Shown here: piece by piece, positions 1,354 through 28,593 of the stretch
How the letters are laid out: each line of letters opens with the position of its first letter
Position numbering within the stretch: the first letter of the stretch is position 1
Virus record (IMG/VR): IMGVR_UViG_3300049057_000084
Location: 1 to 39,779 of that record
Length of the DNA stretch: 39,779 nucleotides
Direction: 5' to 3' (one strand)
DNA from: a virus
Made by a program: the position numbers and the translations under genes
The notes under the pieces: generated by a model
What the model was told of the DNA's origin: nothing
Database searches by the model: none
Seen by the model: the letters and a program-made list of their open reading frames with translations, nothing else

Positions 1354-1562
1354 CCCTCCCCCAAATTTTAGCTGCGCTTCGCAAGAAAGTTGACGCAAAT
1401 GATTTTTCTGAAGCTGACGTGGACAGCATACTCGATGCGCTGGAAATGGCGATTGAGCAGCGGGACGAGCTTCATATTCACGCTAATGAACTTCACTTGA
1501 GAAGCGATCAAGAGATTGTAGATTGGAACACCCAACTCGCCGATATTTTGGAGGGGCGCTAA
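1350..1562 (+). CDS. Small acidic helical protein
   Basis: The product is 70 aa starting at ATG 1350 in an ATGA overlap with the zinc-ribbon gene, so it is probably translationally coupled. The sequence is acidic and predicted helical (segments such as SEADVDSILDALEMA). No known domain is visible. It ends two bases before the nonulosonic acid synthase start, so it may share that transcript. Confidence 0.6.
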   Translation: MTLPQILAALRKKVDANDFSEADVDSILDALEMAIEQRDELHIHANELHLRSDQEIVDWNTQLADILEGR

Positions 1563-1564
1563 AA

Positions 1565-2518
1565 ATGAAAATAATCGCTGAAATTGGCTCTAACTGGCGC
1601 TCGCTTAACGACTGCTTAAACTCTATCGCGCTAGCTAAAGCGTGTGGTGCTGACGCTGTTAAGTTTCAAGCGTATGACTGGCGCTCACTTTATGGCTTTG
1701 GCGCCGTACTTAACCCGCATGAGCTAAATCTAAGGGGCATTCTCGATCCCGCCTGGCTACCCACTCTCAAAGCCAAAGCCGACAGCGTGGACATTGAATT
1801 TATGTGCTCAGCTTTCAGCGTGCCTTTGCTAAACGAAGTAGATAAGTACGTTAGCACTCACAAGGTCGCCAGCGCTGAGCTAACTCACATCCGCATCTTA
1901 GAGCGCCTGCGCGAAATCGGTAAGCCCGTAATCTTGAGCACAGGCGCTAGCAGCATGAATGATATTGCAATAGCGCTAAAGGTGTTGGGCGATACGCCAG
2001 TGACGCTCTTGTATTGCGTGAGTGCCTATCCAGCGAATTATGTGAACTTTAGGAAGATAGACTTGCTGAGAATGAAGTTTCTAAAGCCCGTTGGCTATTC
2101 GGATCACTCGACTGACGCTATTGTTATTCCTATGACCGCAAAGATGTATGGCGCGACCGTTATTGAAAAGCATGTTAACTTGGTTGGCGTTAAAGATACG
2201 CCTGACGCACCACACTCACTAAATACTGATCAGTTTAAGGCTATGTGTAATGCTTTAATCGAGGAGGATGGGTATCGAAGCTTACCCCTCGAGGACGATA
2301 GCGAGCGCGATATGTTTACTACGCATAACCGCCGCTTGATCGCCACGCGCGACATAAAAGCAGGCGAGCACTTCAAAGAAAACGAAAACTTTGGCATATT
2401 TAGAGCGTTAAAGCCTGACACGAAAGCTTTAAGCCCTTGGGCTATTGACAAGGTTAACGGGCATGAGTGTAAGATAGATATTAAAGCTGGCGATGGCATA
2501 CCGCCGGAAGCACTCTAA
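1565..2518 (+). CDS. neuB: NeuB/PseI/LegI-type nonulosonic acid synthase
   Basis: The product is 317 aa. NeuB-family enzymes condense phosphoenolpyruvate with a C6 amino sugar to make a nine-carbon nonulosonic acid (sialic, legionaminic or pseudaminic acid) in the cytoplasm. The start MKIIAEIGSN, CVSAYP (about 151-156), GYSDHS (177-182) and EKH (201-203) match the TIM-barrel signature. A C-terminal SAF (antifreeze-like) domain follows from about residue 255 (NRRLIATRDIKAGE). ATG 1565 follows TTTTGGAGGGGCGCTAAAA, a strong ribosome site, and is preferred over an upstream in-frame ATG at 1523. Length is slightly short for the family (usually about 335-350). It sits directly upstream of the large terminase, 22 kb from the other sugar genes. 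Which sugar it makes cannot be read from motifs, so neuB is a family label. Confidence 0.9.
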   Translation: MKIIAEIGSNWRSLNDCLNSIALAKACGADAVKFQAYDWRSLYGFGAVLNPHELNLRGILDPAWLPTLKAKADSVDIEFMCSAFSVPLLNEVDKYVSTHKVASAELTHIRILERLREIGKPVILSTGASSMNDIAIALKVLGDTPVTLLYCVSAYPANYVNFRKIDLLRMKFLKPVGYSDHSTDAIVIPMTAKMYGATVIEKHVNLVGVKDTPDAPHSLNTDQFKAMCNALIEEDGYRSLPLEDDSERDMFTTHNRRLIATRDIKAGEHFKENENFGIFRALKPDTKALSPWAIDKVNGHECKIDIKAGDGIPPEAL

Positions 2519-2564: not shown

Positions 2565-3896
2565 TTGTCGGCTGACGCTATAGAGTTTTATCCGCATAGT
2601 GATAAACAATCAGACGTTATATTTTCTGACGCTGAAATTACTGCTGCATCTACGGGCACTCAATGGGGTAAAACCCAAGCAGGCACGCTCTGGATGCAGC
2701 GGCAAATGTTCACATATACCGATCCGAAAGATAATTTCATTGTTGCCGCTCCAACTTACAAAATCTTACAACAATCAATCATTCCGTACTTCCTTTATCA
2801 CTTAAAGCCCTTCGGGAAATACAACGGCGCTGACGCTGTTTTTAAACTAAACGAAGGCGGGCAATGTTTTTTTAGAACTGAAACTGATCCTGACTCAATA
2901 GTTGGTATCCCGAACGTGCGCGCTGGTTGGCTTGATGAAGCTGGAAAGCTGCGCTTGTATTTTTGGGAGAATTACCTCGCTCGCGCTGCCGCGAAAGGCG
3001 CAAAGACACTACTAACGAGCTCACCTTACGCGCTTAACTGGTTTTGGCACAAGCTAATTAAGCCAGCGTCTACGGGCGCTCGTCCTGACGTTAAACTTAT
3101 TCGCGCAGCTAGTTGGGAAAATCCTTATCACACGCTACACGATCCCGCTAAGCGCCAAGCCATGCGCGAGACGATGGACGCTCGCCGCTTTAACATGATC
3201 TTTGGCGGTGAGTTTGGGCAAATGGCTGGGCTAGTTTATGACTGTTGGGATGATGCTCAAAACTATATCCCTGAAACAAAGCTCCCAGCTGGTACACGCT
3301 ACTACGGCGGCATTGATTGGGGCTTTACGGAGCCGTTTGCGCTAAAGATCCGCGCCGTGTTGCCATCAGGTGAGCAAATTGGCGTAAGCGAATTTTATAA
3401 ATCAGGCCAGACTATTTCTGACATTAAAGAAGTCTGCGCTAAAAAGCTCAAAATCTATAGCGTTGAAATGTTTTACTGCGATCCCTCTCAGCCTGGCGCA
3501 ATTCTAGAGCTAAACCGCGCGGGCATTCCAGCAGTAGCAGCTAATAACGACATACGCAGGGGCATTGACGCCCACTATGAGCTAATTAAAACGCGTAAGT
3601 ATAAAGAGTTTATAGGCGCATGCCCACACACGCAAGACGAGCGCGAAACCTACCACTATCCAGAGCCAGAGGATTTAGCTCCAGACGATAACGCTAAAGA
3701 GCGAAAGCCCGTACAGCAAAACGACCACTTAATGGATGCTGATCGCTACCTATCAATTTCGCTTAGCGCGGCCGCTGAGAAGCGAAAGCCCATTATTAGC
3801 GAGGGTAAGCCAAAAATACATCGCGATGACATGAGAACTTATTTTGAGAGTTTAAAAAAGAAACGTCCCGGCGGGAGGGTGATTAGTGATTACTAA
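2565..3896 (+). CDS. terL: Terminase large subunit
   Basis: The product is 443 aa and is the DNA-packaging motor ATPase and nuclease. A degenerate Walker A lies at about 29-38 (STGTQWGKTQ), Walker B at 119-127 with D124-E125, and the coupling motif TSSP at 151-154. The RNase H-like nuclease domain has candidate acidic residues D251 (GGIDWGF), D306 (FYCDPS) and D387/D391 (NDHLMDAD). The start is TTG 2565 with TAAAGAGC upstream; the N-terminus fits the family. It follows an intergenic repeat and overlaps the methylase gene by 11 bp. Headful packaging, as in P22-type phages, would agree with the circular assembly, but this is not proven. Confidence 0.92.
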   Translation: MSADAIEFYPHSDKQSDVIFSDAEITAASTGTQWGKTQAGTLWMQRQMFTYTDPKDNFIVAAPTYKILQQSIIPYFLYHLKPFGKYNGADAVFKLNEGGQCFFRTETDPDSIVGIPNVRAGWLDEAGKLRLYFWENYLARAAAKGAKTLLTSSPYALNWFWHKLIKPASTGARPDVKLIRAASWENPYHTLHDPAKRQAMRETMDARRFNMIFGGEFGQMAGLVYDCWDDAQNYIPETKLPAGTRYYGGIDWGFTEPFALKIRAVLPSGEQIGVSEFYKSGQTISDIKEVCAKKLKIYSVEMFYCDPSQPGAILELNRAGIPAVAANNDIRRGIDAHYELIKTRKYKEFIGACPHTQDERETYHYPEPEDLAPDDNAKERKPVQQNDHLMDADRYLSISLSAAAEKRKPIISEGKPKIHRDDMRTYFESLKKKRPGGRVISDY

Positions 3897-5174: not shown

Positions 5175-5335
5175 GCAAAGCTAATTTTAACTTTAGCGAA
5201 ACTCTTAAAGAGCTTACGGGCTATGAGTACAGCCAAATTCGTTTCGAGCAAATTCATGTGCAAAACGCTTTACTGATGCTCGCAATTAAAGAGCTAAAAG
5301 AAATCAAAGAACTTTTAAAAAAAGAGGATAAATAA
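5171..5335 (+). CDS. Small helical protein, 54 aa, TTG start
   Basis: The frame starts at TTG 5171, behind GGGAGGATGA, overlaps the previous stop and runs to a TAA that shares a base with the portal start. The product begins MSKANFNFSETLKELTGYEY and ends in a Lys/Glu-rich helix (IKELKEIKELLKKEDK). Its tight fit between two genes supports it. It may be a small virion or assembly protein; no domain is recognised. Confidence 0.6.
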   Translation: MSKANFNFSETLKELTGYEYSQIRFEQIHVQNALLMLAIKELKEIKELLKKEDK

Positions 5336-7314
5336 TGGATGAAATCATAGGCTCACCACTACTAGCTGAGCACGACGCGCCCAAAGTAGAAGCTAACACC
5401 GAAAAATCTGGCACCTATCAGCCAACCGATGAGGAGCAAAAAGCTATCCGCTTAGTTGAGCGCATATTTGAAAAAAACAAAAAGCATCGCAAAAAATATG
5501 ACGGTAAATGGATGGACCACTACAAAATGGTGCGCGGTAAGCAGTGGAAAGAAGAACGCCCAAGCTATCGTAATAGCGCTGTCTTTAACATTATCTGGCG
5601 TGCGATACAATCACAAGTGCCGATTGAAACTGATTCGCGTCCTAAGTTTGAGTTTTTGCCGCAAGAGCCAAGTGATTATGAATTATCAGTAATTTTAAAC
5701 GAGCTATGCGAAGCTGACTGGGATTCTAAAAACTGGCTCATGACGCTTGTTGAAATGATTTATGATAAAAACTTTTACGGCACAGCGTTTGGCGGGCTAA
5801 CGTATGATGAGGACTATAACGATGGCTTAGGCGATATCTGCTTTCAAAGTCATGATCCGTTTTATCAATTCCCCGATCCAAATTGCTATGACATAAACGA
5901 TAAGCGCTGTAAAAACTATGTCGAAGCTGAGCCCGTTGACGTTGACGTGCTTAAGAGCCAGTACCCAGATAAAGCGCAATTTATTAAGCCAGACTTACAA
6001 GAGTTTTACGGCTCTGATAAAACCAACGTCACCACTGACATTTTAAAGACGCCAGTTGATAACTTAGCTTACACAGAAAACTATAATGATGGCTACGGCG
6101 TGGAGGCGAGAAAAGCATTAAAGAAAACGCTCTGGATTTATGATGATTCCGTAACGGAAGAAAAAGTAGATACCGTTAACGATGACGGCTCCGTTATTAC
6201 AGAATTTGTATCTAAAAAGAAATATCCAAAAGGCCGTAAGATCATTGTCGCTAATAAAGTCCTCTTAGAGGATAGAGAGGGCGAGTACGATGACGGTAAG
6301 ATCCCTAAAGCTAAACTTGTAAACTACATGCTCCCGCGTGAATTTTGGGGCGTTGGCGAAGTAGAGAATCTCTCTGACTTGCAAGTAAACTATAATAAAG
6401 TATGGAGCTTTGTCTTAGATGTTCTTGAGCTAATGGGAAATCCGATTTGGATTATAAGTCAAGACACGGCCATTGACACAGATAACGTCTATAATCGTAA
6501 TGGGCTTATACTAGAGCCCGCATCCTCTGAAGGCATAGTCCAGCGAGTAGAGGGCGTGCAGCTACAGCCTTACGTTATGAATTTAATCGACCGCATTAAG
6601 TCTGACTTTGACGAAATCGCAGGCGATAGAGACGTATCTCGCGGCGTAAACCCCACGGGCGTTACCGCTGCAAGTGCTATTGAAGCTTTACAAGAAACCG
6701 CGCAAACGCGCCAGCGTCAGAAAGCCCGCTTTTTAGATGCGTTCTTGCAGCAGCTTGGGCAAATGTATGTCTCACGCGTATTTCAGTTTAGAACTGTGCC
6801 GCAAGTGTACCGCTTAACGAATAATCAAAACGTAACTAAATACTTTAAGTTCCACGTTGAGGATCAGCCCGTGATGAACGAGCCGCAAATTGATCCTATG
6901 ACGGGCATGATGGGCGCGCCAACTCCCGTGATGGGCGTTGACGGCCAGCCTGAGATGCAGAAAATAGTAAACTATAGCGAGGTAGGCCCTATGGGCGAAA
7001 CGCTCGCAGGATCTGAGCGCCAGCTACCCGTAAACGGTAAGTTTGACGTTAAAGTTTCTACTGGCAGCAGTTTGGCTTTTGATAAGGCGCGCCGAACGGA
7101 CCAAGCCTATCAACTATTTGATCGCGGGCTAGTCGATCCGCAGTACGTTTACGAAACGCTAGAACTTCCAAACTGGCAAGCTGTGATGACACGCATGCAG
7201 CAAAAAGCGATAGCCGATCAGCAAATGCAGGCGCAATTAGCTATGCAAGGCCAGCCGCCAATGCCAGGACAAGGTCCAGCGCCAGCGCCGGGAGGCACGC
7301 CGCCAGCTGCGTAA
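5335..7314 (+). CDS. Portal protein (P22-like podovirus type)
   Basis: The product is 659 aa, the size of portal proteins of P22-type phages, and sits where the portal is expected: after terminase and before scaffold and capsid. The N-terminal half has a charged alpha-helical lead-in and an aromatic-rich wing region (HDPFYQFPDPNCYDI). The segment from about 435 (DEIAGDRDVSRGVNP and a Gln-rich helix) fits the portal stem and crown. The C-terminus is Gln/Met/Pro-rich and ends PAPGGTPPAA. The portal forms the dodecameric DNA channel at one capsid vertex. Assignment rests on family-like sequence, length and synteny. Confidence 0.8.
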   Translation: MDEIIGSPLLAEHDAPKVEANTEKSGTYQPTDEEQKAIRLVERIFEKNKKHRKKYDGKWMDHYKMVRGKQWKEERPSYRNSAVFNIIWRAIQSQVPIETDSRPKFEFLPQEPSDYELSVILNELCEADWDSKNWLMTLVEMIYDKNFYGTAFGGLTYDEDYNDGLGDICFQSHDPFYQFPDPNCYDINDKRCKNYVEAEPVDVDVLKSQYPDKAQFIKPDLQEFYGSDKTNVTTDILKTPVDNLAYTENYNDGYGVEARKALKKTLWIYDDSVTEEKVDTVNDDGSVITEFVSKKKYPKGRKIIVANKVLLEDREGEYDDGKIPKAKLVNYMLPREFWGVGEVENLSDLQVNYNKVWSFVLDVLELMGNPIWIISQDTAIDTDNVYNRNGLILEPASSEGIVQRVEGVQLQPYVMNLIDRIKSDFDEIAGDRDVSRGVNPTGVTAASAIEALQETAQTRQRQKARFLDAFLQQLGQMYVSRVFQFRTVPQVYRLTNNQNVTKYFKFHVEDQPVMNEPQIDPMTGMMGAPTPVMGVDGQPEMQKIVNYSEVGPMGETLAGSERQLPVNGKFDVKVSTGSSLAFDKARRTDQAYQLFDRGLVDPQYVYETLELPNWQAVMTRMQQKAIADQQMQAQLAMQGQPPMPGQGPAPAPGGTPPAA

Positions 7315-8510: not shown

Positions 8511-9434
8511 ATGGCATTAACATGGGGACAAGTGTCGGCCATTACGGAAAAGAAATTTATCCCTAAGATGGTAGACAACATTTTTGATTCTATGGTGCTT
8601 TTAAAGCGCTTTAAAGACGGAGACGTTTACGAATCTGTAGACGGCGGAACGTCGATCATGCAACCGTTAAACTACGCTACTAACTCAAGCGGCGGATGGT
8701 TTTCTGCTAACGATACTATGGACACTACTGACGTAGAATCAATCACGTCAGCTGAGTACGCTTGGTATCAAATGTACGATACTATTTCTATCAGCGGTAT
8801 GGACGAGCGTAAAAATAGTGGTGACGCTGCAGTTTTAAAACTCGTAAAAGAGAAAGTTAAAATTGCTGAGCAAACTGGAATGGATCGCTTGGGCACTGGC
8901 CTTTATAACGCTGGCTCAACATCTAACGCTATTATCGGTTTACGTGCGATCATTAACACGTCAAACACTATTGGCGGTATCTCGCAATCAAGCTACTCAT
9001 GGTGGCAAGGTAAGCTAGATTCTAGCACTACCACTTTGACCTTGGGCGCAATGGCGTCTCGCATGAGCGCATGTAGAATCGGTAGCGATAGACCAACTAT
9101 CATCCCTACTGACTCTACTTATTGGGATAAGTTTCACGGGCTCTTACAACCGCAACAACGCTTTCAAGATTCTAAGTCTGCTAGCGGCGGCTTTAGCTCT
9201 TTACTTTTCCAAGGCGTGCCAGTGGTTGACGATGCTCAATGCCCGTCAGGCTACATGTTTTTCTTAAACGAAAAATACTTAAAGCTTTACTACCATAAGG
9301 ACGCAAACTTTAAGTTTGAAGCATTCGCCAAACCTATTAACCAAGACGCAAAAGTAGCCAAAATCTTATGGATGGGCGCTTTAGCATCTTCTAACAACCG
9401 TATGCATGGCGCTATGAGCGCTCTGACTGCGTAA
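8511..9434 (+). CDS. Major capsid protein
   Basis: The product is 307 aa. It starts at ATG 8511 after CACGGAGGACACTC, a strong ribosome site, as expected for the most abundant virion protein. It follows the scaffold and precedes decoration-like proteins. The sequence has a mixed alpha/beta composition with aromatic-rich beta segments and a central long helix (AAVLKLVKEKVKIAEQTGMDRLG), compatible with an HK97-fold shell protein. No protease gene or long N-terminal delta domain is seen. It is a plausible acceptor for glycosylation by the neighbouring DUF115/Maf-like enzyme because many Ser/Thr residues lie in loop-like segments; that is inference. Confidence 0.8.
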   Translation: MALTWGQVSAITEKKFIPKMVDNIFDSMVLLKRFKDGDVYESVDGGTSIMQPLNYATNSSGGWFSANDTMDTTDVESITSAEYAWYQMYDTISISGMDERKNSGDAAVLKLVKEKVKIAEQTGMDRLGTGLYNAGSTSNAIIGLRAIINTSNTIGGISQSSYSWWQGKLDSSTTTLTLGAMASRMSACRIGSDRPTIIPTDSTYWDKFHGLLQPQQRFQDSKSASGGFSSLLFQGVPVVDDAQCPSGYMFFLNEKYLKLYYHKDANFKFEAFAKPINQDAKVAKILWMGALASSNNRMHGAMSALTA

Positions 9435-9447
9435 GGGGAGGTGACAT

Positions 9448-9900
9448 ATGGGATATAATGGAATTTCACCGATTTTCTTTAAAAGCGTTTCAAACGTAAC
9501 CGCCGTTGCTGACGTACAGCTTGGCACTCGCCGCGTAGAAAGCGGTGAGGAGTACGTTTACTGCTACAACAACACTGGCTCAAGCGTTACTCAAGGCGCT
9601 TTGATGATTAAGAGCTTAACCTCTCTTACTCGTTCAAGCACTGACGCTCTTGACTGGCCGCTTGTGTGCGTAAAGCACGCCGCCGTGCCAGCAGCAGAGT
9701 ACTTCTGGGGCTTAGTGCGTGGTGAGGCAAGCGTAATGTCAATTGCGATGACCGCTGGCGATCTACTAACTGTAGGCGCTGACGGTGCCGTTGCAACGTA
9801 TATTACAGCAACGCTACCGACTGGCGTTTTCATTGGTAAGGCGCTTAGCACGTCAACTGGCAACGCTCAACCAAACTGTCATTTAAGACTATTCGGTTGA
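9448..9900 (+). CDS. Head decoration-like protein
   Basis: The product is 150 aa, beta-rich, Ser/Thr/Ala-rich and acidic to neutral. It starts at ATG 9448 after AAGGGGAGGTGACAT, 13 bp behind the capsid gene. Composition (short hydrophobic strands alternating with Gly/Ser loops, for example TAGDLLTVGADGAVATY) and position fit a capsid-surface protein. The family is not recognised for certain. It is another possible substrate for the adjacent transferase. Confidence 0.5.
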   Translation: MGYNGISPIFFKSVSNVTAVADVQLGTRRVESGEEYVYCYNNTGSSVTQGALMIKSLTSLTRSSTDALDWPLVCVKHAAVPAAEYFWGLVRGEASVMSIAMTAGDLLTVGADGAVATYITATLPTGVFIGKALSTSTGNAQPNCHLRLFG

Positions 9901-9918: not shown

Positions 9919-10938
9919 ATGAGTCGAAAGGCTGAAATTACATTAGAGTTTCAAAACTACATCGAAGCGCCGCCAGTTTCAACTGATAGGCTTTACGGTA
10001 CTGCTGCGAGAAATGACGATATTACCGTCAAATCTTGGCGCGGTACTTGGCTAGCCCAAATCAAGGCAAACAAAAAGCGCTTTGGAAGTTTTAAAGACTA
10101 TGGTGTTGGGAAGCTTTTTGACAAATACGCAAAGCGTCCCGCGATTATCGCGGGCGCTGGCCCTTCGCTAAAACATAATGGACATTTGCTAAAAGATCGT
10201 GGCGACATTGCGCTTTTTAGCTGTCTCCATAACTTTCATTTTTTTGAGGACCAGGAAATATACCCCGATTACTACGTAACTTTAGACGCTGGCGATATTA
10301 CAGTGGGAGAAGTTTCAGAGGGCGGTAAATATGATCCTGAGTATTATTGGAACAAAACAAAAGATAAAAAACTAATTGCCTATATTGGCACTAGTCCGCT
10401 CTTGCTAGAGAAATGGCAGGGCGAGATTTATTTTTTCAATGCTCCAATGCCTGACGAATCTTTGAAAAAAGAAATTAACGAGATAGAGGAATTTCACACA
10501 TATATTTCGAACGGCGGTAACGTGCTTGGCGCGTGTCTGTATGCCGCGAAGGGTATTTGTGGAGCTAACCCGATAGCGTTTGTTGGTGCGGATTTTTGTT
10601 TCAGCTATGACAAAAAGTTTCACGCTTGGGATTCAAAGTATGACGCTAACCTTGGACACGTAATGCGTACTAACGACGTTTACGGCAACAAGGTTTTAAC
10701 GTGGGCGTCTTACATGGGTTTTAAATCGTGGTTTGATTTTGTCGCAATTAAAGTGCCCGGCATTTGGATAAATTGTACAGAGGGCGGAACTTTCGGCGCA
10801 TATCCTGACGGTAACATCATGGCGGTTAAGCAAATGGAGCTACAAGAATTTCTAGATATGTATTCACTAAATCGACACATAAAAGATCAATGCCTTGATC
10901 CTGAAAATGCAGCTTCTAAAGGTATTGTACTTTTTTAA
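9919..10938 (+). CDS. DUF115/Maf-like glycosyltransferase (MptE-like fold)
   Basis: The product is 339 aa with the hallmarks of the DUF115/MAF_flag10 family: the nucleotide-sugar loop AGAGPSL (78-84), PDYYVTLDAGD (116-126), SNGGNVLGA (197-205), PIAFVGADF (218-226) and NCTEGG (285-290). In bacteria Maf proteins transfer nonulosonic acids such as pseudaminic or legionaminic acid to Ser/Thr of flagellin; other members of the fold are pterin pyrophosphokinases (MptE). The phage copy is shorter than most Maf proteins (commonly 450-700 aa), so it is mostly the catalytic core. There is no flagellin here. It sits between head genes and starts after AAAAGGGGAGATATG, suggesting high late expression and a virion substrate. 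A function outside glycosylation cannot be excluded. Confidence 0.8.
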   Translation: MSRKAEITLEFQNYIEAPPVSTDRLYGTAARNDDITVKSWRGTWLAQIKANKKRFGSFKDYGVGKLFDKYAKRPAIIAGAGPSLKHNGHLLKDRGDIALFSCLHNFHFFEDQEIYPDYYVTLDAGDITVGEVSEGGKYDPEYYWNKTKDKKLIAYIGTSPLLLEKWQGEIYFFNAPMPDESLKKEINEIEEFHTYISNGGNVLGACLYAAKGICGANPIAFVGADFCFSYDKKFHAWDSKYDANLGHVMRTNDVYGNKVLTWASYMGFKSWFDFVAIKVPGIWINCTEGGTFGAYPDGNIMAVKQMELQEFLDMYSLNRHIKDQCLDPENAASKGIVLF

Positions 10939-10950: not shown

Positions 10951-11220
10951 ATGGCTTTCTCTATTTCTACAATTCATAACAGTGTGTTTGGCGATCTTCG
11001 CGTTGCGATTCTGTCATGCACTATTGATAGTGCTTCTGGTAACATTAACACTGGCTTTCAAAGTGTTTACGGCGCTCACATTATGCCGGGCTCAATGGCG
11101 ACAGCGGGCATCACGCTAGTTAGAAACGTAGGCTCTGGCGCCACAGCACGCGCAGGATACGTAAACGTAAATTCTGGCGCAGCGGGTGACGTTTTCGTTT
11201 TATCGGTTTACGGAAAGTAA
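10951..11220 (+). CDS. Small virion-like protein, 89 aa
   Basis: The product is beta-rich and Gly/Ser/Ala-rich (segments such as NVGSGATARAGYVNVNSG). It begins at ATG 10951 after AAAAGGGGTAAAA, a good ribosome site. It has no Cys-rich or catalytic motif. Composition and position among head genes suggest a small capsid-associated or head-completion protein. Family not recognised. Confidence 0.55.
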   Translation: MAFSISTIHNSVFGDLRVAILSCTIDSASGNINTGFQSVYGAHIMPGSMATAGITLVRNVGSGATARAGYVNVNSGAAGDVFVLSVYGK

Positions 11221-11600: not shown

Positions 11601-12470
11601 GTGGCAATAGTGTTTGCTGTTCGCGGAGATAGTTTAGACGCTAGATACTCAAGCGGCGGTAAGACTGGCACACGTACAAGCTCTACGCTGGTCGTGCCAA
11701 ACACAGCTACGACTGGCGCACTCGGCGGCGTAGCGATTGACTTTAACACTGTAGCAAGCTCTAAAGCGGCAACGTGGAACGCATCATCTAATACGCCAAA
11801 CGGGCGCGCTATTTCTGCAAATCATGGCTACGTCCCGCAGTATTCTGGCGCGCCATCATCACGCCGTGCGATTATAAATCTCTCGGCAAACTCTGGGCGC
11901 TTAGGCGAAATAGAATTAACACATGAAACGACCACGGGAAATATAAACGTCACCGCGATAAATGCCGCTGGAACAGTTTGCATAAATGCGGCAAGCGCCG
12001 GAGCCTTTTCGCCAACATCGGGCACTAGATATGACATAAGTTTCGCTTGGGACGGCACCACTACAGCAAACTCTTTTAAGGTTTACGTAGATGCAGCACT
12101 GCTTGGCAGTCTCACTCCGGGCACAGCGTTTGAGGCTGGCTGGACAAACACATATTTTAAAGAAATTATTTTAGGCGTCTCGCGAGCATCATCCGCAGCG
12201 CTACATCGCACTGACGAACTAGTGGTATGGGATACGGTTATAGATTTTACTGCTAACGTAGCGCTTGAATCTGGTAACGGTTTATTAAACGGTGCAAGCC
12301 GCTCAAGCTACGTAAGCGTGTCAGCGTTTGACGGGCTTAATTCTACTGATCCAGGCATAGCAAACGTCGCAAGCGGCACCTCATATTATATTAACGGCAC
12401 GTCCTACACTGGTACGATGACCGCGTCAGGCGGGAGCACGCACTCAAGCTCATATAATTGGAGTAACTAA
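11601..12470 (+). CDS. LamG/concanavalin-like virion surface protein
   Basis: The product is 289 aa with GTG start 11601 immediately after the preceding stop. The pattern of short strands, the segment RYDISFAWDGTTT and FKVYVDAALLGSL suggest a concanavalin/LamG-type jelly roll across about 25-215. Near the C-terminus, PGIANVASGTSYYINGTSYT is a motif I recognise from many phage surface proteins, where it recurs before polymeric or domain tails. It probably decorates the capsid or binds carbohydrate. It is Ser/Thr-rich, so it is another possible glycosylation target. Confidence 0.55.
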   Translation: MAIVFAVRGDSLDARYSSGGKTGTRTSSTLVVPNTATTGALGGVAIDFNTVASSKAATWNASSNTPNGRAISANHGYVPQYSGAPSSRRAIINLSANSGRLGEIELTHETTTGNINVTAINAAGTVCINAASAGAFSPTSGTRYDISFAWDGTTTANSFKVYVDAALLGSLTPGTAFEAGWTNTYFKEIILGVSRASSAALHRTDELVVWDTVIDFTANVALESGNGLLNGASRSSYVSVSAFDGLNSTDPGIANVASGTSYYINGTSYTGTMTASGGSTHSSSYNWSN

Positions 12471-12482: not shown

Positions 12483-12836
12483 ATGTCATACGGACCTTTA
12501 GCAATTTACCCTGACACGATAGCGTCAGGTGCATCAACATCGAGTGGAGTTTACCTAGATCGCTCCTACAAAAACGTACTATTGCAAGTGGGCACTATGA
12601 GTACAGGTGTCGCGATAAACGTGCAAGGCAAAGCGCGCTCGTCAGATTCCTACTACTCTCTTTATCATCCCGTGATTAACTCAAGCACAGTAACCACAAA
12701 TTCATTTGTGATTAGCGCCGTAGTTGGCGATAACGGCGGCATTGTACCAATACCAAACGGTTTACAATATATCCGCTTTCGCGGCACTGGCGTCGTATCT
12801 GGCGGCGTTTCTTTTACAGTAATTTGCTCAGATTAA
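12483..12836 (+). CDS. Beta-rich virion-like protein, 117 aa
   Basis: ATG 12483 follows AAAAGGAGTTTTTT, a clear ribosome site. The product is almost entirely short hydrophobic strands and Ser/Thr/Gly loops (for example GVAINVQGKARSSDSYY), without catalytic residues or membrane segments. A head decoration or joining role is plausible from position. Family not recognised. Confidence 0.5.
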   Translation: MSYGPLAIYPDTIASGASTSSGVYLDRSYKNVLLQVGTMSTGVAINVQGKARSSDSYYSLYHPVINSSTVTTNSFVISAVVGDNGGIVPIPNGLQYIRFRGTGVVSGGVSFTVICSD

Positions 12837-13299: not shown

Positions 13300-13944
13300 G
13301 TGACTAACGCTAGCATCGAGCAAGCAGCGCGTGAGCAGTACAACGCTGTAAGCGATAGCTTTTACTCGCAAGCCTCTATCATTACGTTAATCAATAAAGC
13401 GCAACAAGAGCTCGCGACAAAAGCGCTTTTGATTGAAAATAAAACTACGTTTGCGACCGTAGCTGGAACGCGTGCCTATAGCTATCCTTCAAACGTGATA
13501 GCGTTTAAACGCGTTGAGTATTCGGGCGCCAAACTTGATCCAATAGACTTTAGAGATGACGATTTAGTAAACCTTTACCCTACGACTACGACAACCGGAA
13601 CGCCGCGCTTTTACTCGATATGGGATAAGCAAATATACTTGCGCCCCATTCCCGCAGCGGTCGCAACTGTTACGGTTTACGTATATTCAGAGCCAACTAT
13701 CATGACGCTTTCAACTGAAACGCCAGAGGTGCCGACGCAATTTCATTTAGGCTTAACTGATTACATTCTCATGCACATGGCCGCCAAAGATGGGAACTTA
13801 CAGTTAGCTAGTTGGCATCAAAACATTTGGGAAAAGTTTGTAAAAGACGCAATCAGGTGGAAGCAAAAAGAAAAAGTAACTGACGGCTTTCGTGCCGTGA
13901 AATCTGAGGATTTAGCTAGAAAAACTGTTTTAGGAGTTAAGTGA
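13300..13944 (+). CDS. Head-tail adaptor protein (putative)
   Basis: The product is 214 aa. GTG 13300 follows GGAGG by six or seven bases and sits right after the terminator-like hairpins. The N-terminal helices (MTNASIEQAAREQYN, ITLINKAQQELATKALL) and a central beta region (YPSNVIAFKRVEYSG, IYLRPIPAAVATVTVYV) resemble the head-tail connector or adaptor proteins that sit below the portal in podoviruses. The next gene overlaps in a GTGAG-type junction, so the two are probably coupled. Assignment by pattern and position. Confidence 0.55.
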   Translation: MTNASIEQAAREQYNAVSDSFYSQASIITLINKAQQELATKALLIENKTTFATVAGTRAYSYPSNVIAFKRVEYSGAKLDPIDFRDDDLVNLYPTTTTTGTPRFYSIWDKQIYLRPIPAAVATVTVYVYSEPTIMTLSTETPEVPTQFHLGLTDYILMHMAAKDGNLQLASWHQNIWEKFVKDAIRWKQKEKVTDGFRAVKSEDLARKTVLGVK

Positions 13945-15836
13945 GAAGGATTTATCCGAGCAAGACACCTATACGTCCTGACGGCGGCTTAAACAATAAG
14001 TTTGCGCCAGCGCTCATTGGCGATAACGAATCACCAGACTGCCTAAACGTAAGCTTTGGCGACGGCGCTGTAGGTACGCGCGGCGGATCCAGTAAACTAA
14101 ATACGGCAAGCGTTGGCTCTTATGTTTGCGATGGGCTCTATACGCGCCATGATCAAACGGGCGCTGAGACTATGTGCGCATGGTATGGCGGTAGTATGTG
14201 GGCTGTTAACGGTACCTCTGGCGTCACTGTACCAAGCGCCACAAGCATTTGGACCGCTGGCCAGCGAGTAGCAAGCGCTGAGTATCAGAATCAAATTTTC
14301 TTCGGTAACGGCGGCTCTATTCCCATGAAATGGAATGGTACAGACTTTACACGCCACGGCGTTTACCCGCCCACGACAACGGCAACGGTAGCGACTGCGC
14401 CAACGGGTACCGGACGCACGGGCTCGTTTAGTTATAAGTTTACTTACGTAAATAGCTATAGCGTTGAGGGTGACGTTTCTCCTGTGACGAATACGCACAC
14501 GCTAGCAAATGAGAATGCGCGCTTAACTTCTATTCCGGTAGCGCCGCAAAGCTTTGGCGTAAGCGCTCGGCGCATTTACCGCACCACTAACGGCGGCACG
14601 AGCTATAAGCTTGTGACCACGCTAAATGATAACTCTACGACAACGTATGACGATGCGGTAGCTGACGCTTCACTAGGCGCGACGGCGCCAACTGATAACG
14701 GCGTACCGCCGCTTTATAACTCAATTGTTTATCATCAAAATAGATTATTCGCGCTTGATCCTTCAAACTTAAACTACGTGATGTATTCAGAGCTTGGCGA
14801 GCCGCACACGTGGGCTACGACTAACTTTTTAAAGGTTGGCGATAATACTTCTGACTTATGCCGGGGCTTAGGCGTTTACGATAACGCTATTTACGTCGTG
14901 TGTGATAATTCAAAATGGCTAATTTACTTACCTGATCCAAGCGATGCGACCACGTGGCAAGTGTTAAAAGTTAAGGGCGCGCACGGCTCTAAATCTCCAT
15001 TTTGCTTACTTGATGTTAAAGACGGCTTGTTATTTCCAGCAATGCAGAATGATAAGTTTGTTGGCTTTGGCATGGTAAAAGGAAACTCTCAAAGCCAAAG
15101 CGAAACGCTTTTAACAGTAAATGCCGTGGGCTCTGATTTAATTTCTAATCGCATAGAGCCTGATATGTTTGATATGAACGATACCTATATAGGGAATATA
15201 TCTGGCACCGTTTTTAAAAATAAAGCGTATATTACGCTAACGAAAGCCTCAGCTAATTCTACCAATAACCGCGTTTACGTTTACGATTTTTCTATTGATA
15301 ACATCACTAAAAAGCAAAAAGCCGTTTGGGCGCCGTACACTGGCTGGAATGCCGCGCAGTTTACTATCTGGAATGGTAGCTTATATTTTGGCTCGTCAAC
15401 GGCTAACGGTTTTATTTACCAAGCCGAAACGTCTACGTATAACGATGACGGCTCAGCGATTAACTCTTACTTCTGGACCAAAGAATTTGCGGGCTATGAT
15501 GGCGAGTACAGCTACAATAAAGACTACCGCCATGCTAGACTGTTAGTGGATTTGCCGGGCGCATACTATATGAATGTCGCTTACAAAACTGACTCCGATG
15601 ATAGTGACGGTACAAACATACAACTCGATTTAACCCCCGGCGGTTCTTTGTGGGGCGTTATGGTTTGGGGCGTAGACAATTGGGGCGGCGGGGCTTTGCG
15701 CTCTGAAAAAGAAATCAAAATCGGCGGCGCCAGGGGCAAGAGAATACAGTTTAAATTTTCAAATCAAAATACAGTTAATCAAATGTTTAAAGTTCACTGG
15801 TTTAGCTTTGCATATAATCTGAAAGGATTTAGATAA
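13941..15836 (+). CDS. Tail hub/neck protein of podovirus type (putative)
   Basis: The product is 631 aa. It begins with the recognisable segment PDGGLNNKFAPALIGDNESP and has repeated strand-turn modules with Trp/Tyr-rich blades (for example YHQNRLFALDPSNLNYVMYS, IWNGSLYFGSS). These suggest a beta-propeller-like fold as in P22 gp10-class DNA-stabilisation or hub proteins. It follows the adaptor with a 4-bp overlap and precedes ejection proteins, the order expected in short-tailed phages. The exact family is not certain. Confidence 0.6.
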   Translation: MRRIYPSKTPIRPDGGLNNKFAPALIGDNESPDCLNVSFGDGAVGTRGGSSKLNTASVGSYVCDGLYTRHDQTGAETMCAWYGGSMWAVNGTSGVTVPSATSIWTAGQRVASAEYQNQIFFGNGGSIPMKWNGTDFTRHGVYPPTTTATVATAPTGTGRTGSFSYKFTYVNSYSVEGDVSPVTNTHTLANENARLTSIPVAPQSFGVSARRIYRTTNGGTSYKLVTTLNDNSTTTYDDAVADASLGATAPTDNGVPPLYNSIVYHQNRLFALDPSNLNYVMYSELGEPHTWATTNFLKVGDNTSDLCRGLGVYDNAIYVVCDNSKWLIYLPDPSDATTWQVLKVKGAHGSKSPFCLLDVKDGLLFPAMQNDKFVGFGMVKGNSQSQSETLLTVNAVGSDLISNRIEPDMFDMNDTYIGNISGTVFKNKAYITLTKASANSTNNRVYVYDFSIDNITKKQKAVWAPYTGWNAAQFTIWNGSLYFGSSTANGFIYQAETSTYNDDGSAINSYFWTKEFAGYDGEYSYNKDYRHARLLVDLPGAYYMNVAYKTDSDDSDGTNIQLDLTPGGSLWGVMVWGVDNWGGGALRSEKEIKIGGARGKRIQFKFSNQNTVNQMFKVHWFSFAYNLKGFR

Positions 15837-20158: not shown

Positions 20159-21523
20159 ATGGCAGCACCGAGCGTAACGTACTCTTTTTCAAACAGCACG
20201 ACCGCTGACGCCACACAAGTAAACCAAAACTTTACTGACATCATAAACGGCTTAAGCGATGGCACTAAGGATCTAACGATAAACGCGCTAACATGCGCTG
20301 GCGCAGTTAGCATGCAGGGACACGTTACGCTTGGTAACGGCACGCCAGATGATATCACTGTAAGCGGTTCGCTTGCCTCTAGCATTCCGATTAAGACTAC
20401 ATTTAGCTATGACGTTGGCACAAGCACTATCGGCTTGCGCAGCATTTACTTTGGTTCTAACGATAGCGCTGCACGCACTACGCGTGTGATCGCGGGCGCA
20501 GTGGGATCTAGCTACACGTTAACGCTACCAACGGGCGCTGGCTCTGCTGGGCAAGTGGTTAGAAACTTGGGCTCTGGCTCTCTAGCGTTTTCAGATGACG
20601 CTGGCGAAACTATAAATTTAGGGCTCGCCGCAAGCGTTGGCTCAAGCGCTCTAACAGTTGCGCTAAAAGGCGCTGACGGCAACGACGCAAGCTCAACAAA
20701 TCCAGTTTACATCAAATTTAGAAACGCAACGCTCACCACAGGTACGCCAGTCACGCGCACTATAACGGGAGCGCTGAGCGTTGTCGCATCAAGCGGCTCA
20801 ACACTGGGGCATAAGAGCGCAGTGGTGCAGTATGTTTACGTTTACGCAATAGATAACGCTGGTACGGTAGAGCTAGCTGTGAGCGGGCAAAAGCTTTTTG
20901 AAGAGGGCGGAGTTGTTAGCACCACGGCTGAAGGCGGCGCTGGCGCAGCTGATAGCGGGACGGTACTTTACTCAACGACCGCGCGATCAAATGTGGCGTG
21001 CAGACTAATTGGTCGGCTTAAGTCAACGCAAGCTACAGCGGGCACTTGGGCTACAGCGATTGCGGAGATTGCCGTAGGAGCGTTTGAGGACGTGGTTATC
21101 AGGTCAGAAGTTTACGTTTCTAACGGCAACGCTCACGGCTCAACAAATAATAAAATACGTCGCTTTACTACCGTTAACAATAACACTGGTACCGCAATCA
21201 CTTATGCAGATTCAGGAACTGACGGCGCTTCATTTACAATAAATGAAGAGGGTCTTTACGCGGCTTACTATGGTGATACTCATGACTCGGGCCTGCAATA
21301 TCATGGCATTACGCTTAATTCTACCAACCTAACAACAGCGATCAACTCGCTTGCTCATCCAGAGGCCTTGTGCATATGCACTTGTAGTACCGCCGCAGCG
21401 CCAGCCACAACCGGGTTTGTAAAGCGGTTACGGCCAGGCGATGTTGTGCGCCCACACACAGGCGGCAATCATGCAAATTCGACGGTTTTTAACTTTTTTC
21501 ACATTGCTAAGGTAGGTCCGTAA
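20159..21523 (+). CDS. Tail fibre protein with C1q/TNF-like C-terminal domain
   Basis: The product is 454 aa. The N-terminus (MAAPSVTYSFSNSTTADATQ) is followed by a beta-rich Gly/Ser region with repeated GNGT and TLTLPTGAG-type segments, typical of fibre shafts. The last ~130 residues (NTGTAITYADSGTDGASFTI, the Cys-containing CICTCSTAA, LRPGDVVRPHTGG, FNFFHIAKVG) have the layout of a C1q/TNF-like jelly roll often found at receptor-binding tips. ATG 20159 follows GTGGAGGCGTAGC. It is the likely host-recognition protein. Confidence 0.7.
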   Translation: MAAPSVTYSFSNSTTADATQVNQNFTDIINGLSDGTKDLTINALTCAGAVSMQGHVTLGNGTPDDITVSGSLASSIPIKTTFSYDVGTSTIGLRSIYFGSNDSAARTTRVIAGAVGSSYTLTLPTGAGSAGQVVRNLGSGSLAFSDDAGETINLGLAASVGSSALTVALKGADGNDASSTNPVYIKFRNATLTTGTPVTRTITGALSVVASSGSTLGHKSAVVQYVYVYAIDNAGTVELAVSGQKLFEEGGVVSTTAEGGAGAADSGTVLYSTTARSNVACRLIGRLKSTQATAGTWATAIAEIAVGAFEDVVIRSEVYVSNGNAHGSTNNKIRRFTTVNNNTGTAITYADSGTDGASFTINEEGLYAAYYGDTHDSGLQYHGITLNSTNLTTAINSLAHPEALCICTCSTAAAPATTGFVKRLRPGDVVRPHTGGNHANSTVFNFFHIAKVGP

Positions 21524-24210: not shown

Positions 24211-24420
24211 ATGGAAAAAAACTTATTTATTTTACTTACAGCCTCTATCCTATTAAACGCTTACCTAATCTATAAGCTAAAATACCAAAAACTTAAAAAA
24301 ACTGAAACGTATGACGCTAAAGCCTTGATGGTAGACCTCATGCGCGGCGGTGCTTTAGTTGAGATTCGGCGCTTAGATCCTGAAAGCATTTTCTTGCGCT
24401 CACCACGGGAGCTAAATTGA
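24211..24420 (+). CDS. Small single-pass membrane protein, 69 aa
   Basis: An N-terminal transmembrane segment (LFILLTASILLNAYLIY) is followed by a basic then mixed cytoplasmic part (YDAKALMVDLMRGGALVEI). ATG 24211 is A-rich upstream. Its stop overlaps the TTG start of the dehydratase gene, so it is the first cistron of the sugar cassette. It could anchor something at the inner membrane; no family known. Confidence 0.55.
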   Translation: MEKNLFILLTASILLNAYLIYKLKYQKLKKTETYDAKALMVDLMRGGALVEIRRLDPESIFLRSPRELN

Positions 24421-25265
24421 AGGTCTTTATCAGCGGTATTACTGGCTCGCTTGGAACGGAAGTCACGCGCCAACTGCTAGAGCAAGGCGTGCATCAAATC
24501 ACTGGCTACTCACGCTGCGACCATAAACAAAAAGCATTCCCTTACAAAAAAGATGTGGCGCTTTACTTAGGCGATATCCGCGACCGTGACCGCTTGCTAG
24601 AGGCTACTCGTGGCGCTGACATTATCTTTCACTTTGCAGCTTTCAAGCACGTTGATAGCGCTGAGATCCAGCCAGAGGAGTGCATAGCTACTAATGTCGC
24701 TGGCACTAATAACGTTTTATTTTGTCAGCGCATGAATAAGATTAAGCGCGTAGTATTCACGTCAACTGATAAAGCGTGTGATCCGATTAACGTCTACGGC
24801 TGTACAAAGCTAATTGGCGAGCGCTTAGTTATGCGTAACCCAAACAATCTTGTTGCGAGATATGGAAACGTCATTGCTTCCAACGGGAGCGTTATCCCAT
24901 CGTTTGTTAAGACGCTAAAAAAAGAGCGCAAAGTCTATATCACTGACACTAACATGAATCGCTTTTTCATACGCCTAGAGGACGCAGCTGCTTTCGTTAT
25001 TGAAAACGGGCTTAACTCTAAGGGCGGAAAGTATATTCCTGAGATGAGAGCTTGCAGCATTGAGCAATTAGCTGACGCTGTGGCAAAGGTAATGCGCATT
25101 AAAACCTACGGCATGGTCAACATGGGCATTCGTCCCGGCGAAAAAATGTTTGAGCAGCTAGTTAGCCCACACGAGGGCACAGAGATTAGATCCGACAAAG
25201 CAACGCAATTTACGAAAAAAGAGCTTATTGAATTAATACGCCCAAGCGTGGAGGCACTCTTATGA
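24417..25265 (+). CDS. FlaA1/PseB-like nucleotide-sugar dehydratase
   Basis: The product is 282 aa, an extended SDR. The NAD(P)-binding motif GITGSLG is at 7-13; FAAFKHVDSAE and the catalytic STDKACDPINVYGCTKLIGE (T/D-K plus Y-x-x-x-K) follow the FlaA1/PseB pattern. PseB converts UDP-GlcNAc to a 4-keto-6-deoxy sugar with C5 inversion, the first step to pseudaminic acid; CapD/LegB-type relatives do related chemistry. TTG 24417 with GGGAG upstream overlaps the previous stop (TTGA). It overlaps the next gene by an ATGA junction. Slightly short against PseB (about 330 aa), so the exact product needs testing. Confidence 0.85.
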   Translation: MKVFISGITGSLGTEVTRQLLEQGVHQITGYSRCDHKQKAFPYKKDVALYLGDIRDRDRLLEATRGADIIFHFAAFKHVDSAEIQPEECIATNVAGTNNVLFCQRMNKIKRVVFTSTDKACDPINVYGCTKLIGERLVMRNPNNLVARYGNVIASNGSVIPSFVKTLKKERKVYITDTNMNRFFIRLEDAAAFVIENGLNSKGGKYIPEMRACSIEQLADAVAKVMRIKTYGMVNMGIRPGEKMFEQLVSPHEGTEIRSDKATQFTKKELIELIRPSVEALL

Positions 25266-25921
25266 GTAAGTTTCTAATCATTGGCAATAAGGGCTCTATG
25301 GGTAGGCGCTATACTGCGCTATTACGCCACTTCACGATGAAAGCTGACGGCATTGACGTTGATACGCCAGTTAACAACATCGCAGCTATTGCAAAAGATT
25401 ACGCTGGCGTGATTGTGGCTACACCTACAGATACGCACTTTGATATTTTAGTTAAGCTCAGTGATATCAAAAATGATATCAACATTCTTTGCGAAAAGCC
25501 GCTAACGAAGGGCGCTTTTGAGCTAGCAAAAATATGTCAACTTTATAAAGACAAAAACTTGCAAATGGTCATGCAGTATAAAGACCTAGATCTTGGCGGC
25601 GAGGGCGATAGTTTCTACGACTACTACAATCACGGTAGAGACGGCTTGCACTGGGACTGCTTACAAATAGTGGGCTTAGCGCGTGGGCGCGTAATGCTTT
25701 CCGAGGATTCGCCATATTGGAAGTGTCGGCTAAATGGCGCTGACTTAGACATCAAGAAAATGGATTACGCGTACAGCATGATGCTTCGGCGCTGGTTTAG
25801 AAATCCAAAGGGTGACTTGGGCTTTTTAACTTCTATTCACGATAAAGTAAGGGACATGATTGATGAGACATCAAGGGCCGCCGAAGCGGGTAGTGATCGG
25901 TATACAAGCGCGTTCTACTAG
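25262..25921 (+). CDS. Gfo/Idh/MocA-family oxidoreductase, short
   Basis: The product is 219 aa. The Rossmann start FLIIGNKGSMGRRY and the signature ILCEKPLTKG (about 75-84) place it in the Gfo/Idh/MocA sugar-dehydrogenase family. Full members usually have about 310-360 aa with a beta-sheet C-terminal substrate domain; here only the first ~120 residues and a short remainder are present. It overlaps the next gene by 59 bp. It may be a reduced but functional enzyme or a degenerated copy. Related proteins occur beside sugar-nucleotide genes in flagellar and surface-glycan loci. Confidence 0.7.
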   Translation: MSKFLIIGNKGSMGRRYTALLRHFTMKADGIDVDTPVNNIAAIAKDYAGVIVATPTDTHFDILVKLSDIKNDINILCEKPLTKGAFELAKICQLYKDKNLQMVMQYKDLDLGGEGDSFYDYYNHGRDGLHWDCLQIVGLARGRVMLSEDSPYWKCRLNGADLDIKKMDYAYSMMLRRWFRNPKGDLGFLTSIHDKVRDMIDETSRAAEAGSDRYTSAFY

Positions 25922-26597
25922 CCAAAGGCTACCGCGAAAAGTTCACGCTATTGTCGGCAAGAAAAGGGTTTTAGACCTAGTGCTAGACGCCGCTTCTGAG
26001 AGCGTTAACTATGTAAACACTGGCTTTAACGGGCGCGTGTTTTCGGAGTTTTGCCTGCTCGTGCCAACAGGTGACGAAATCGTAGAAGCGTTTCCCGATA
26101 ACTTTATTATTGAAGGCTCAGAGTTTGACGTTTTATCTAGATATAAAAAAATGTCCGATAGCTTAAAGCCAGACTATATCGTTAGAATTACCGCTGACTG
26201 CCCGCTAATCCCAAGCCACGTTATTACAAATATCATTAAAGTTGGCTCTATGAATAATTACGACTACGTCGCTAACTTTTTCGAGAAGGGCGATAAGCTA
26301 TTTCGGTTAGTGCCTGACGGTTTTGAGTGTGAGTTTTTCTCACGTAAAATGCTCTCTTGGGCGCATGAAAATGCTACTGAAAAATCAGACCGCGAGCATG
26401 TAACCACGATCATGCGCACATATCCAGAGGGGTATAAATACGGCGTTGTCATTCCGAAAGTGCCCTACACTGGCAAAAAATTAAGTATTGATACTAAAGA
26501 CGATTTAGAAACTATCAGCGACCTAAAGTCTTGCGTTGACGAGGCCGTACAGAAAGCGAGCGTGCTATTTGGCAAATCAAGCGTCCACCGCTATTGA
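25863..26597 (+). CDS. SpsF/NeuA-like cytidylyltransferase
   Basis: The product is about 244 aa. IQARSTSQRLPRKV, FDVLSRYKKMSD, ITADCPLI, DREHVT and LSIDTKDDLE match the SpsF/CMP-sugar synthetase branch of GT-A-like nucleotidyltransferases. Such enzymes activate nonulosonic acids as CMP-sugars for transfer. ATG 25863 follows TAAGGGA; TTG 25860 is one codon upstream. It overlaps both neighbours, consistent with a coupled operon. The substrate is inferred from the presence of a NeuB-like synthase and a Maf-like transferase in the same genome. Confidence 0.82.
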   Translation: MRHQGPPKRVVIGIQARSTSQRLPRKVHAIVGKKRVLDLVLDAASESVNYVNTGFNGRVFSEFCLLVPTGDEIVEAFPDNFIIEGSEFDVLSRYKKMSDSLKPDYIVRITADCPLIPSHVITNIIKVGSMNNYDYVANFFEKGDKLFRLVPDGFECEFFSRKMLSWAHENATEKSDREHVTTIMRTYPEGYKYGVVIPKVPYTGKKLSIDTKDDLETISDLKSCVDEAVQKASVLFGKSSVHRY

Positions 26598-27780: not shown

Positions 27781-27782
27781 TA

Positions 27783-28076
27783 ATGGTGCACATTTTAGGA
27801 CAAGAAAAGCTAGCCGACAAAATCGAAGCGTTTAAAGCAAAGCGCGCTAACATTGAAAAGCTACAAGCGGAAGTTAACGCTGAAAAGCGCCAGCTTGATA
27901 CGTGGGTAGCGACAACTGAGATTTGCAAGAAATGGCAAGCCAAAGCTGAAACGCTAAACAAGGAAGTTGAAACGTATAAAGCTGAAATGAAGGCGCAGTT
28001 CGGTATTGCCGATGGCGAGCGCACGGATATTTTAGAGCTAGTGCAAGCCATGAAGAAAGTAGCGACACTTGATTGA
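27783..28076 (+). CDS. Coiled-coil protein inside the sugar cassette, 97 aa
   Basis: A Lys/Glu/Ala-rich product (MVHILGQEKLADKIEAFKAK) predicted to be one continuous coiled coil to about residue 70, then a short mixed tail. ATG 27783 lies two bases after the aminotransferase stop, with GGGAGTAATA upstream. Its location between two sugar enzymes suggests a cassette-specific role or a passenger gene. Not recognised. Confidence 0.6.
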   Translation: MVHILGQEKLADKIEAFKAKRANIEKLQAEVNAEKRQLDTWVATTEICKKWQAKAETLNKEVETYKAEMKAQFGIADGERTDILELVQAMKKVATLD

Positions 28077-28593
28077 TTTTGGCTTTGGCGTAGCGCTTGG
28101 GCCAATCTCTGACACAATAGCGGAGCTTTTGCGCCTATGGCGAAACGATCCGAAAATCTATAAGTGGTGCCGCCAAGTCGGCCCTTTAGAGAAGTTTGAG
28201 CATGCGGCTTGGCTCAAGTCATTAGAGGCCGGGCGTCCTGACGTTAAGATGTTTTCTATTATTGTCGAAAACGCCAGCGTCGGCGCTTGCGGGCTAACTA
28301 GTATTGACTGGATAAATCGGCGCGCTGAATTTTCGCTTTATATCGCGCCCGAGGACCAACGCAAAGGTTACGCTAGGGCTGCGCTTAAAACACTGCTTAA
28401 GCACGGCTTTGAAAGCTTAAACTTGCACTTAATCTGGGGCGAGACGTTTGACGGCAATCCAGCCGCTAAAATGTTTGAAGCGCTTGGCTTTCGCAAAGAG
28501 GGCACGCGCCGAGAGTTTTATTTTAAAGAGGGGCGCTACATAGATGCGCACTTATACAGCGTTAAACGTGAGGAGGTCGTATGGACTGGCTAG
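28069..28593 (+). CDS. GNAT-family N-acetyltransferase (PseH/RimJ-like)
   Basis: The product is 174 aa. LRLWRNDPKIYKWCRQ, SIIVENASVGACGLT, the acetyl-CoA loop QRKGYARAAL and FEALGFRKEGTRREFYFKEG follow the Acetyltransf_3 type of GNAT. In pseudaminic acid synthesis PseH acetylates the 4-amino group of the UDP-sugar; this enzyme could do that or acetylate another amino sugar. TTG 28069 overlaps the coiled-coil gene stop by eight bases. Substrate is inferred from neighbours. Confidence 0.82.
   Translation: MIDFGFGVALGPISDTIAELLRLWRNDPKIYKWCRQVGPLEKFEHAAWLKSLEAGRPDVKMFSIIVENASVGACGLTSIDWINRRAEFSLYIAPEDQRKGYARAALKTLLKHGFESLNLHLIWGETFDGNPAAKMFEALGFRKEGTRREFYFKEGRYIDAHLYSVKREEVVWTG

Follow-up and report, generated by a model that had tools for sequence, protein, structure and literature searches.

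A Maf-type glycosyltransferase gene in the capsid operon of an Mx8-related podophage and its predicted role in coating the virion with a nonulosonic acid

The stretch of DNA analysed here (the window, 39,779 bases, a complete IMG/VR record) belongs to a P22/Mx8-like podophage and was found to carry a gene of the Maf glycosyltransferase type within its virion module, together with a NeuB-family nonulosonic acid synthase and a cassette of further sugar genes. The comparative evidence presented below makes it fairly probable that the phage makes a nonulosonic acid and attaches it to a surface protein of its own virion. The relationship to Mx8 was indicated by a P22-like portal, a phrog_9953 capsid gene, an SU10-like adaptor and a homologue of genes annotated as 'phage stabilization protein'. 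The Maf gene lies in a block bracketed by the capsid gene on one side and the adaptor gene on the other, as listed below.

2565..3896, + strand, terminase large subunit (TerL), PHROGs profile match
5335..7314, + strand, portal protein, P22-like, Pfam and PHROGs profile matches
8511..9434, + strand, major capsid protein, phrog_9953, E 4.6e-59
9448..9900, + strand, p150, predicted decoration/cement protein of the capsid, gene immediately 5' of Maf, predicted fold
9919..10938, + strand, Maf-type glycosyltransferase (PF01973) consisting of a compact catalytic domain, from Pfam, predicted fold and motifs
10951..11220, + strand, p89, small protein rich in Ser/Thr, next gene after Maf, second candidate acceptor
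12483..12836, + strand, p117, small Ser/Thr-rich protein of the Maf block
13300..13944, + strand, SU10-like adaptor, profile match
13941..15836, + strand, 631-aa gene, the 'phage stabilization protein' homologue
20159..21523, + strand, p454, conserved Ser/Thr-rich protein whose gene closes the virion module, 5' of the cassette, third candidate acceptor

The window also encodes an integrase and a CI-like repressor. Elsewhere, a D12-class adenine methyltransferase gene (3886-4848) occupies the terminase-portal interval and has a counterpart in only 1 of 21 relatives, and a 385-aa Subtilisin-family (Peptidase_S8) protease is encoded in the non-structural region (36677-37834) and is absent from the compared relatives.

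Motifs and predicted fold of the Maf-type protein

The open reading frame (ORF) at 9919-10938 has an ATG start and encodes 339 amino acids. It is the second gene 3' of the major capsid gene and is preceded by a good ribosome site, AAAGGGGAGATATG. The sequences AGAGPSL, GADF and NCTEGG were all present, and the GxGPSL, G-x-D and N-x-T-E-G-G motifs of the Maf catalytic domain are all conserved in the phage protein; the glycine and NxTEGG motifs were invariant or nearly so across 18 relatives. In motifs, ribosome site and position, the preliminary description of this DNA was borne out. The match to PF01973 (E 1.9e-22, 80.3 bits compared to a cut-off of 34.6) was far beyond chance. The Pfam name of this family, MptE-like, is not decisive, since it takes in the pterin kinases of archaea as well as the Maf transferases.

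When a structure model built from 18 phage sequences (pLDDT 84.5, pTM 0.86) was compared with solved structures, the best match was the Maf of Magnetospirillum (5mu5), with a Z score of 21.8 over 241 residues at 2.9 A. Weaker matches were obtained with HPPK/MptE of M. jannaschii (Z 14.6), SteA (10.5) and the sialyltransferases ST8SiaIII (9.8) and CstII (9.4). Foldseek likewise ranked Maf first (E 5.1e-10) and HPPK second (E 2.3e-5), and no family scored above Maf among those in the structure libraries searched. The preliminary description had named a structural match to MptE-type kinases alone as evidence against its proposal; no such result was seen. Moreover, comparison of profiles with five longer Maf-like proteins from bacteria gave a probability of 99.5% (E 5.9e-23) over an alignment that covers GxGPSL and N-x-T-E-G-G. 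These five proteins came from a genome scan guided by two patterns, one of them around N-x-T-E-G-G, so the profile comparison carries a mild selection bias that leaves the structural result unaffected. From fold and context together, we infer that the ORF very likely encodes a Maf-type transferase.

The N-terminal Maf domain PF20157 had no match in the 339-aa phage protein in the Pfam scan; it reached the cut-off in two of the four longer bacterial Maf-like proteins scanned. The phage protein has neither this domain nor the C-terminal helical domain of full-length flagellin Maf. Neither a flagellin domain nor pterin genes were found among about 30 window ORFs scanned, in agreement with the preliminary description of a phage that has no flagellin. 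No match to the window Maf was found by tblastn in a collection of 50,697 cultured-phage records, and no PHROGs family matched it. Close bacterial homologues in the genome scan were confined to a single contig of 3.5 kb assigned to an Actinomycetota MAG, which is too short to name a host. Maf residues 198-243 (window 10510-10647) weakly resemble spike protein G of phiX174 (E 0.05-0.1); this was considered and set aside as probably due to chance, the stretch being short.

Sugar genes and their conservation with the virion module

The synthase and cassette that the preliminary description had placed in the same genome as Maf were confirmed, the cassette extending over 24417-28593 in the window.

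1523..2518, + strand, NeuB-family nonulosonic acid synthase, PF03102, 164.5 bits
24211..24420, + strand, p69, small protein of a conserved family, at the head of the cassette
24417..25265, + strand, PseB-like UDP-GlcNAc 4,6-dehydratase family, profile match
25262..25921, + strand, Gfo/Idh/MocA-like oxidoreductase, short, profile match
25860..26597, + strand, SpsF-like cytidylyltransferase, predicted CMP-nonulosonic acid synthetase, PF02348
26536..27780, + strand, class-III (HemL-like) PLP aminotransferase, profile match
28069..28593, + strand, GNAT acetyltransferase, PseH-like, profile match

The NeuB catalytic residues K47, K114, D194, H195, E215 and H217 were invariant in all 18 sequences compared, the cytidylyltransferase (PF02348, 42.7 bits compared to a cut-off of 22.6) retained its motifs in 18 of 18, and the aminotransferase retained Lys259 in 19 of 20. 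The best NCBIfam match of the dehydratase was PseB, at 210.5 bits and under the equivalog cut-off of 407.75, and the best match of the acetyltransferase was PseH, at 72.4 bits with a cut-off of 93.1. The Gfo/Idh-like family was found in 15 of 22 records. The p69 family was also found in 15 of 22; the window protein has 69 amino acids and a hydrophobic N-terminal stretch.

In 20 records, neither a DegT-type aminotransferase (PseC), in place of which a class-III aminotransferase occurs, nor a PseG/SpsG-type hydrolase (PF04101) was found, indicating that the sugar route is not the textbook pseudaminic or legionaminic acid route. The canonical pathway of these two acids, which the preliminary description named as the sugars that Maf enzymes attach to flagellin, is incomplete in the phage. 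Maf enzymes are known to accept several nonulosonic acids (PMC11339370). Bacterial homologues of the phage cytidylyltransferase are often fusions of about 680 amino acids with the same class-III aminotransferase, and NeuB is sometimes adjacent; the phage gene set thus resembles an existing bacterial nonulosonic acid module. The fusions were seen at loci L255-L257, L260, L261, L265 and L266, with NeuB adjacent in L265, and the overlap of about 60 bases between the window cytidylyltransferase and aminotransferase ORFs is an unfused version of them.

At least 140 relatives were found in IMG/VR scans, and gene maps were drawn for the window and 21 related records (22 in all). A constant order, mostly on a single strand, was observed: NeuB, TerL, a zinc-ribbon gene, portal, a scaffold-like gene, capsid, p150, Maf, p89, p117 and other small genes, followed by adaptor, the 631-aa gene, p454, p69, dehydratase, Gfo/Idh, SpsF, aminotransferase and GNAT. 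The exceptions were a dehydratase gene beside NeuB in two records and an inverted cassette in one. When the 19 records of at least 33 kb were clustered, most had in common only virion genes and the Maf, NeuB and cassette families; lysis, integration and replication genes were not widely shared. NeuB was present in 18 of these 19 records, the window included, and in 34 of the 38 records extending at least 7.7 kb upstream of Maf, mostly at an upstream distance of 6.8-8.7 kb and on the Maf strand. In two further records, NeuB lies where circular permutation would place it. ParB-like or ParB-methyltransferase-like genes (family f24) occur near NeuB in some relatives.

Mean identity within the clade was 53% for Maf and 55% for the capsid protein. 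Maf distances tracked those of virion genes (r 0.5-0.6), as did capsid distances those of the 631-aa gene, and when the window was compared with its closest relative, nonsynonymous change was well under synonymous change, indicating purifying selection. The GC content of the clade ranges over 40-66%, which suggests varied hosts. There was a single clear exception to the pairing of Maf with sugar genes. Record G029 (the record of locus L036) encodes an intact Maf at 28140-29090, while NeuB, dehydratase, SpsF and GNAT are absent and the aminotransferase is without its PLP lysine; this Maf may draw on a donor sugar made by the host.

Since these relatives had been found through Maf, a second search was made with the capsid protein, in which the clade was defined by a capsid identity of at least 47% and a sister clade by one of at most 42%. 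Maf was directly downstream of the capsid gene in 34 of the 34 clade loci having sequence there; two clade contigs ending 0 and 542 bases past the capsid gene were left out of this count. p150 was present in every clade locus having Maf. At one capsid-derived locus (L204) there was no NeuB inside the 10 kb searched. In contrast, Maf and NeuB were found in none of the 44 sister-clade loci, and in those inspected the gap between capsid and adaptor genes was 0.2-1.2 kb with one or a few small genes, compared to approximately 3.9 kb in the window. Neither PF01973 nor PF03102 was found in five cultured or complete outgroup phages whose whole records were searched. The clade pattern is essentially one acquisition, kept since, and not many independent ones; as a single evolutionary event, the clade does not allow a Fisher test to be used as a probability.

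Predicted target of the transferase

According to the explanation that we favour, the phage NeuB, dehydratase, aminotransferase, acetyltransferase and SpsF-like synthetase would make a CMP-activated nonulosonic acid, presumably late in infection. The Maf-type transferase would then put this sugar on Ser/Thr residues of a virion surface protein in the host cytoplasm, ahead of assembly, which would leave the completed capsid with a negatively charged coat resembling sialic acid. Such a coat may benefit capsid stability, surface charge or adsorption, or may shield the particle from host or environmental binding proteins. Modification before assembly fits with published work, in which Maf modifies unassembled monomers in the cytoplasm (PMC4065374). 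Several observations count against the explanation: the missing N- and C-terminal domains found in the Maf of flagellated bacteria, the lack of DegT and PseG in 20 records, which leaves no known complete pathway, the intact Maf of G029 despite loss of NeuB and most of the cassette, the single acquisition behind the clade pattern, and a p150 whose distances do not follow those of Maf.

The strongest argument for the particle as target is that the association of Maf with a capsid gene recurs in an unrelated virion. This second phage was found in the genome scan as a 65.6 kb contig (JAGXTB010000072.1, locus L093) in a Sphingomonadales MAG, and it also occurs in IMG/VR as 65,646 bases with an identical Maf. 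Its portal is lambda-family-like, just under the cut-off, and its capsid is of a different family from that of the window. Two tandem Maf genes lie between a cement-like gene (a weak PF22758 match, E 0.008, under the cut-off) and the capsid gene, and a third Maf is located 13.8 kb downstream; the Maf-like loci are L093 9920-11778 and L250 5509-6537. A CMP-sugar synthetase gene follows 1.3 kb past the capsid gene, with NeuB further on. Every PF01973 gene found in the MAG sits on this contig, and tblastn of the three Maf genes gave no match in the 50,697 phage records. The phage also carries a mannose-isomerase-like cupin, a GDP-mannose-dehydratase-like protein and a radical SAM gene.

Taken together, the predicted fold, synteny, clade conservation and the second phage argue that the target of Maf is quite probably a virion protein, as the preliminary description had proposed. 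Its suggestion of a LamG-like protein as acceptor did not hold: the LamG-like gene (11601-12470) has a counterpart in only one relative and is a poor candidate, p150 being a better one. A model of p150 folded with 18 relatives (pLDDT 75.5) matched HFTV1 (8qsy; Z 13.0), FCWL1 (10.8), Pam3 (10.7), E217 (10.3) and phi29 gp8.5 (9.7), and with few exceptions the best matches were either decoration proteins of phage capsids or the base of the phi29 head fibre. Ser and Thr make up about 20% of p150 compared to 12.7% across all ORFs, which alone is weak evidence since a high Ser/Thr content is also seen in further virion proteins of the phage. Co-variation gives p150 no specific support, its distances being uncorrelated with those of Maf (r 0.09). 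On the predicted fold and position, p150 is the most likely single acceptor, an assignment that is tentative and just short of an even chance; p89, p117 and p454 are alternative candidates.

Virion glycosylation could also be real with a protein of the tail or a fibre, for instance p454, as acceptor, serving adsorption, instead of the capsid shell. p454 contains 25% Ser and Thr, is conserved in 21 of 22 records and adjoins the cassette. However, in two unrelated phages the neighbours of Maf are the capsid gene and the gene of a predicted decoration protein, and we regard a tail or fibre acceptor as unlikely.

It is less likely still that the system alters the host surface (flagellin, LPS or capsule), blocking superinfecting phages or changing the lysogen in the manner of serotype-converting phages. 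The integrase and CI-like repressor of the window, the flagellin genes in the host bin of the second phage and the fact that characterised Maf enzymes target flagellin (PMC11339370) are all consistent with such a role. However, an integrase was present in only 5 of 19 relatives and Maf and NeuB were near-universal, indicating that the system is not tied to lysogeny and that lysogenic conversion is unlikely. Moreover, the sugar genes lie within the virion module, share its strand and are inherited together with it, flagellin and polymer-export genes were not seen in the cassette, and the N-terminal Maf domain is missing. The varied hosts suggested by the GC range are also unlike a single specific flagellin acceptor.

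The retention of Maf after cassette loss in G029, and a conservation of Maf equal to that of the capsid protein, would also be compatible with a phage-made sugar and a Maf that is a non-catalytic or scaffolding factor in capsid assembly. The donor-site motifs of the transferase fold are, however, among the invariant residues, and a host-made CMP sugar could serve G029, making this role very improbable. Least probable of all is an MptE-type pterin diphosphokinase or other nucleotide enzyme that lies near sugar genes incidentally, for which the Pfam name and the second-best fold speak, against a Maf match 7 Z units better over a longer aligned stretch, alignment of the NxTEGG motif and C-terminal half to bacterial Maf-like proteins, near-constant pairing with NeuB and the cassette, and the lack of pterin genes among the ORFs scanned.

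The wider reading of a virion modified by its own Maf is evenly balanced: that the widespread podophage clade would use a working, partly non-canonical nonulosonic acid route and a stripped-down Maf to glycosylate the capsid decoration protein, that no fewer than one unrelated phage (65.6 kb) would do so independently, and that the phage-made, sialic-acid-like coat would be integral to the particle.

Relation to known systems

The catalytic fold and motifs of the phage Maf are those of the flagellin Maf glycosyltransferases (5mu5, CbMaf and A. caviae Maf1). These are likewise paired with nonulosonic acid synthesis, and the likeness leads one to expect that Ser/Thr residues of a surface protein capable of self-assembly are modified in the cytoplasm (PMC11339370, PMC4065374). 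Unlike them, the phage protein is without the N- and C-terminal Maf domains, has no flagellin beside it and is encoded in a capsid operon. The Mx8-like and P22-like podophages have a homologous capsid and the same TerL-portal-capsid-adaptor order; the five cultured or complete relatives among them differ from the window phage in being without PF01973 and PF03102.

Mycobacteriophage virions are reportedly glycosylated by different types of glycosyltransferase and with different sugars, and we know of no NeuB or Maf in those systems. Their capsid and tail subunits have been reported to be glycosylated (Freeman 2023, as cited in PMC12619734). The VP4 spike of the haloarchaeal virus HRPV-1 bears 5-N-formyl-legionaminic acid (PMC6137143). 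There, the sugar pathway is owned by the host and the sugar terminates an N-linked pentasaccharide, whereas in the window phage synthesis and a candidate transferase are encoded by the virus. In Bacillus subtilis, the sps genes coat the spore crust with legionaminic acid; they share with the phage a NeuB-like synthase (SpsE), an SpsF cytidylyltransferase, an acetyltransferase (SpsD), UDP-linked precursors and a sugar that coats a particle (PMC7439481). In contrast to sps, for which no Maf is reported, the phage has no SpsG and has a class-III aminotransferase. No report of a phage encoding both nonulosonic acid synthesis and Maf was found in the open-access literature, subscription journals and preprints being outside the scope of the search. 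The self-modification system was called undescribed in the preliminary description; this stands, within that literature, for phage-encoded synthesis with Maf, but not for virion nonulosonic acid as such, which is known in its host-made form from HRPV-1, nor for phage glycans. The individual components are known ones, whereas neither their combination nor the target is.

NeuB-like genes on viral contigs should not be called host-metabolism genes before the virion operon has been checked for a transferase. If the proposed explanation is true, a phage is able both to make an acidic nine-carbon sugar and to coat itself with it; this would account for the presence of sugar genes inside the core genome of a phage lineage and would link bacterial flagellin glycosylation to virion biology. 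It would also provide a minimal, catalytic-domain Maf for the study of acceptor recognition, and the function of a phage capsid glycan would become directly testable in a small genome.
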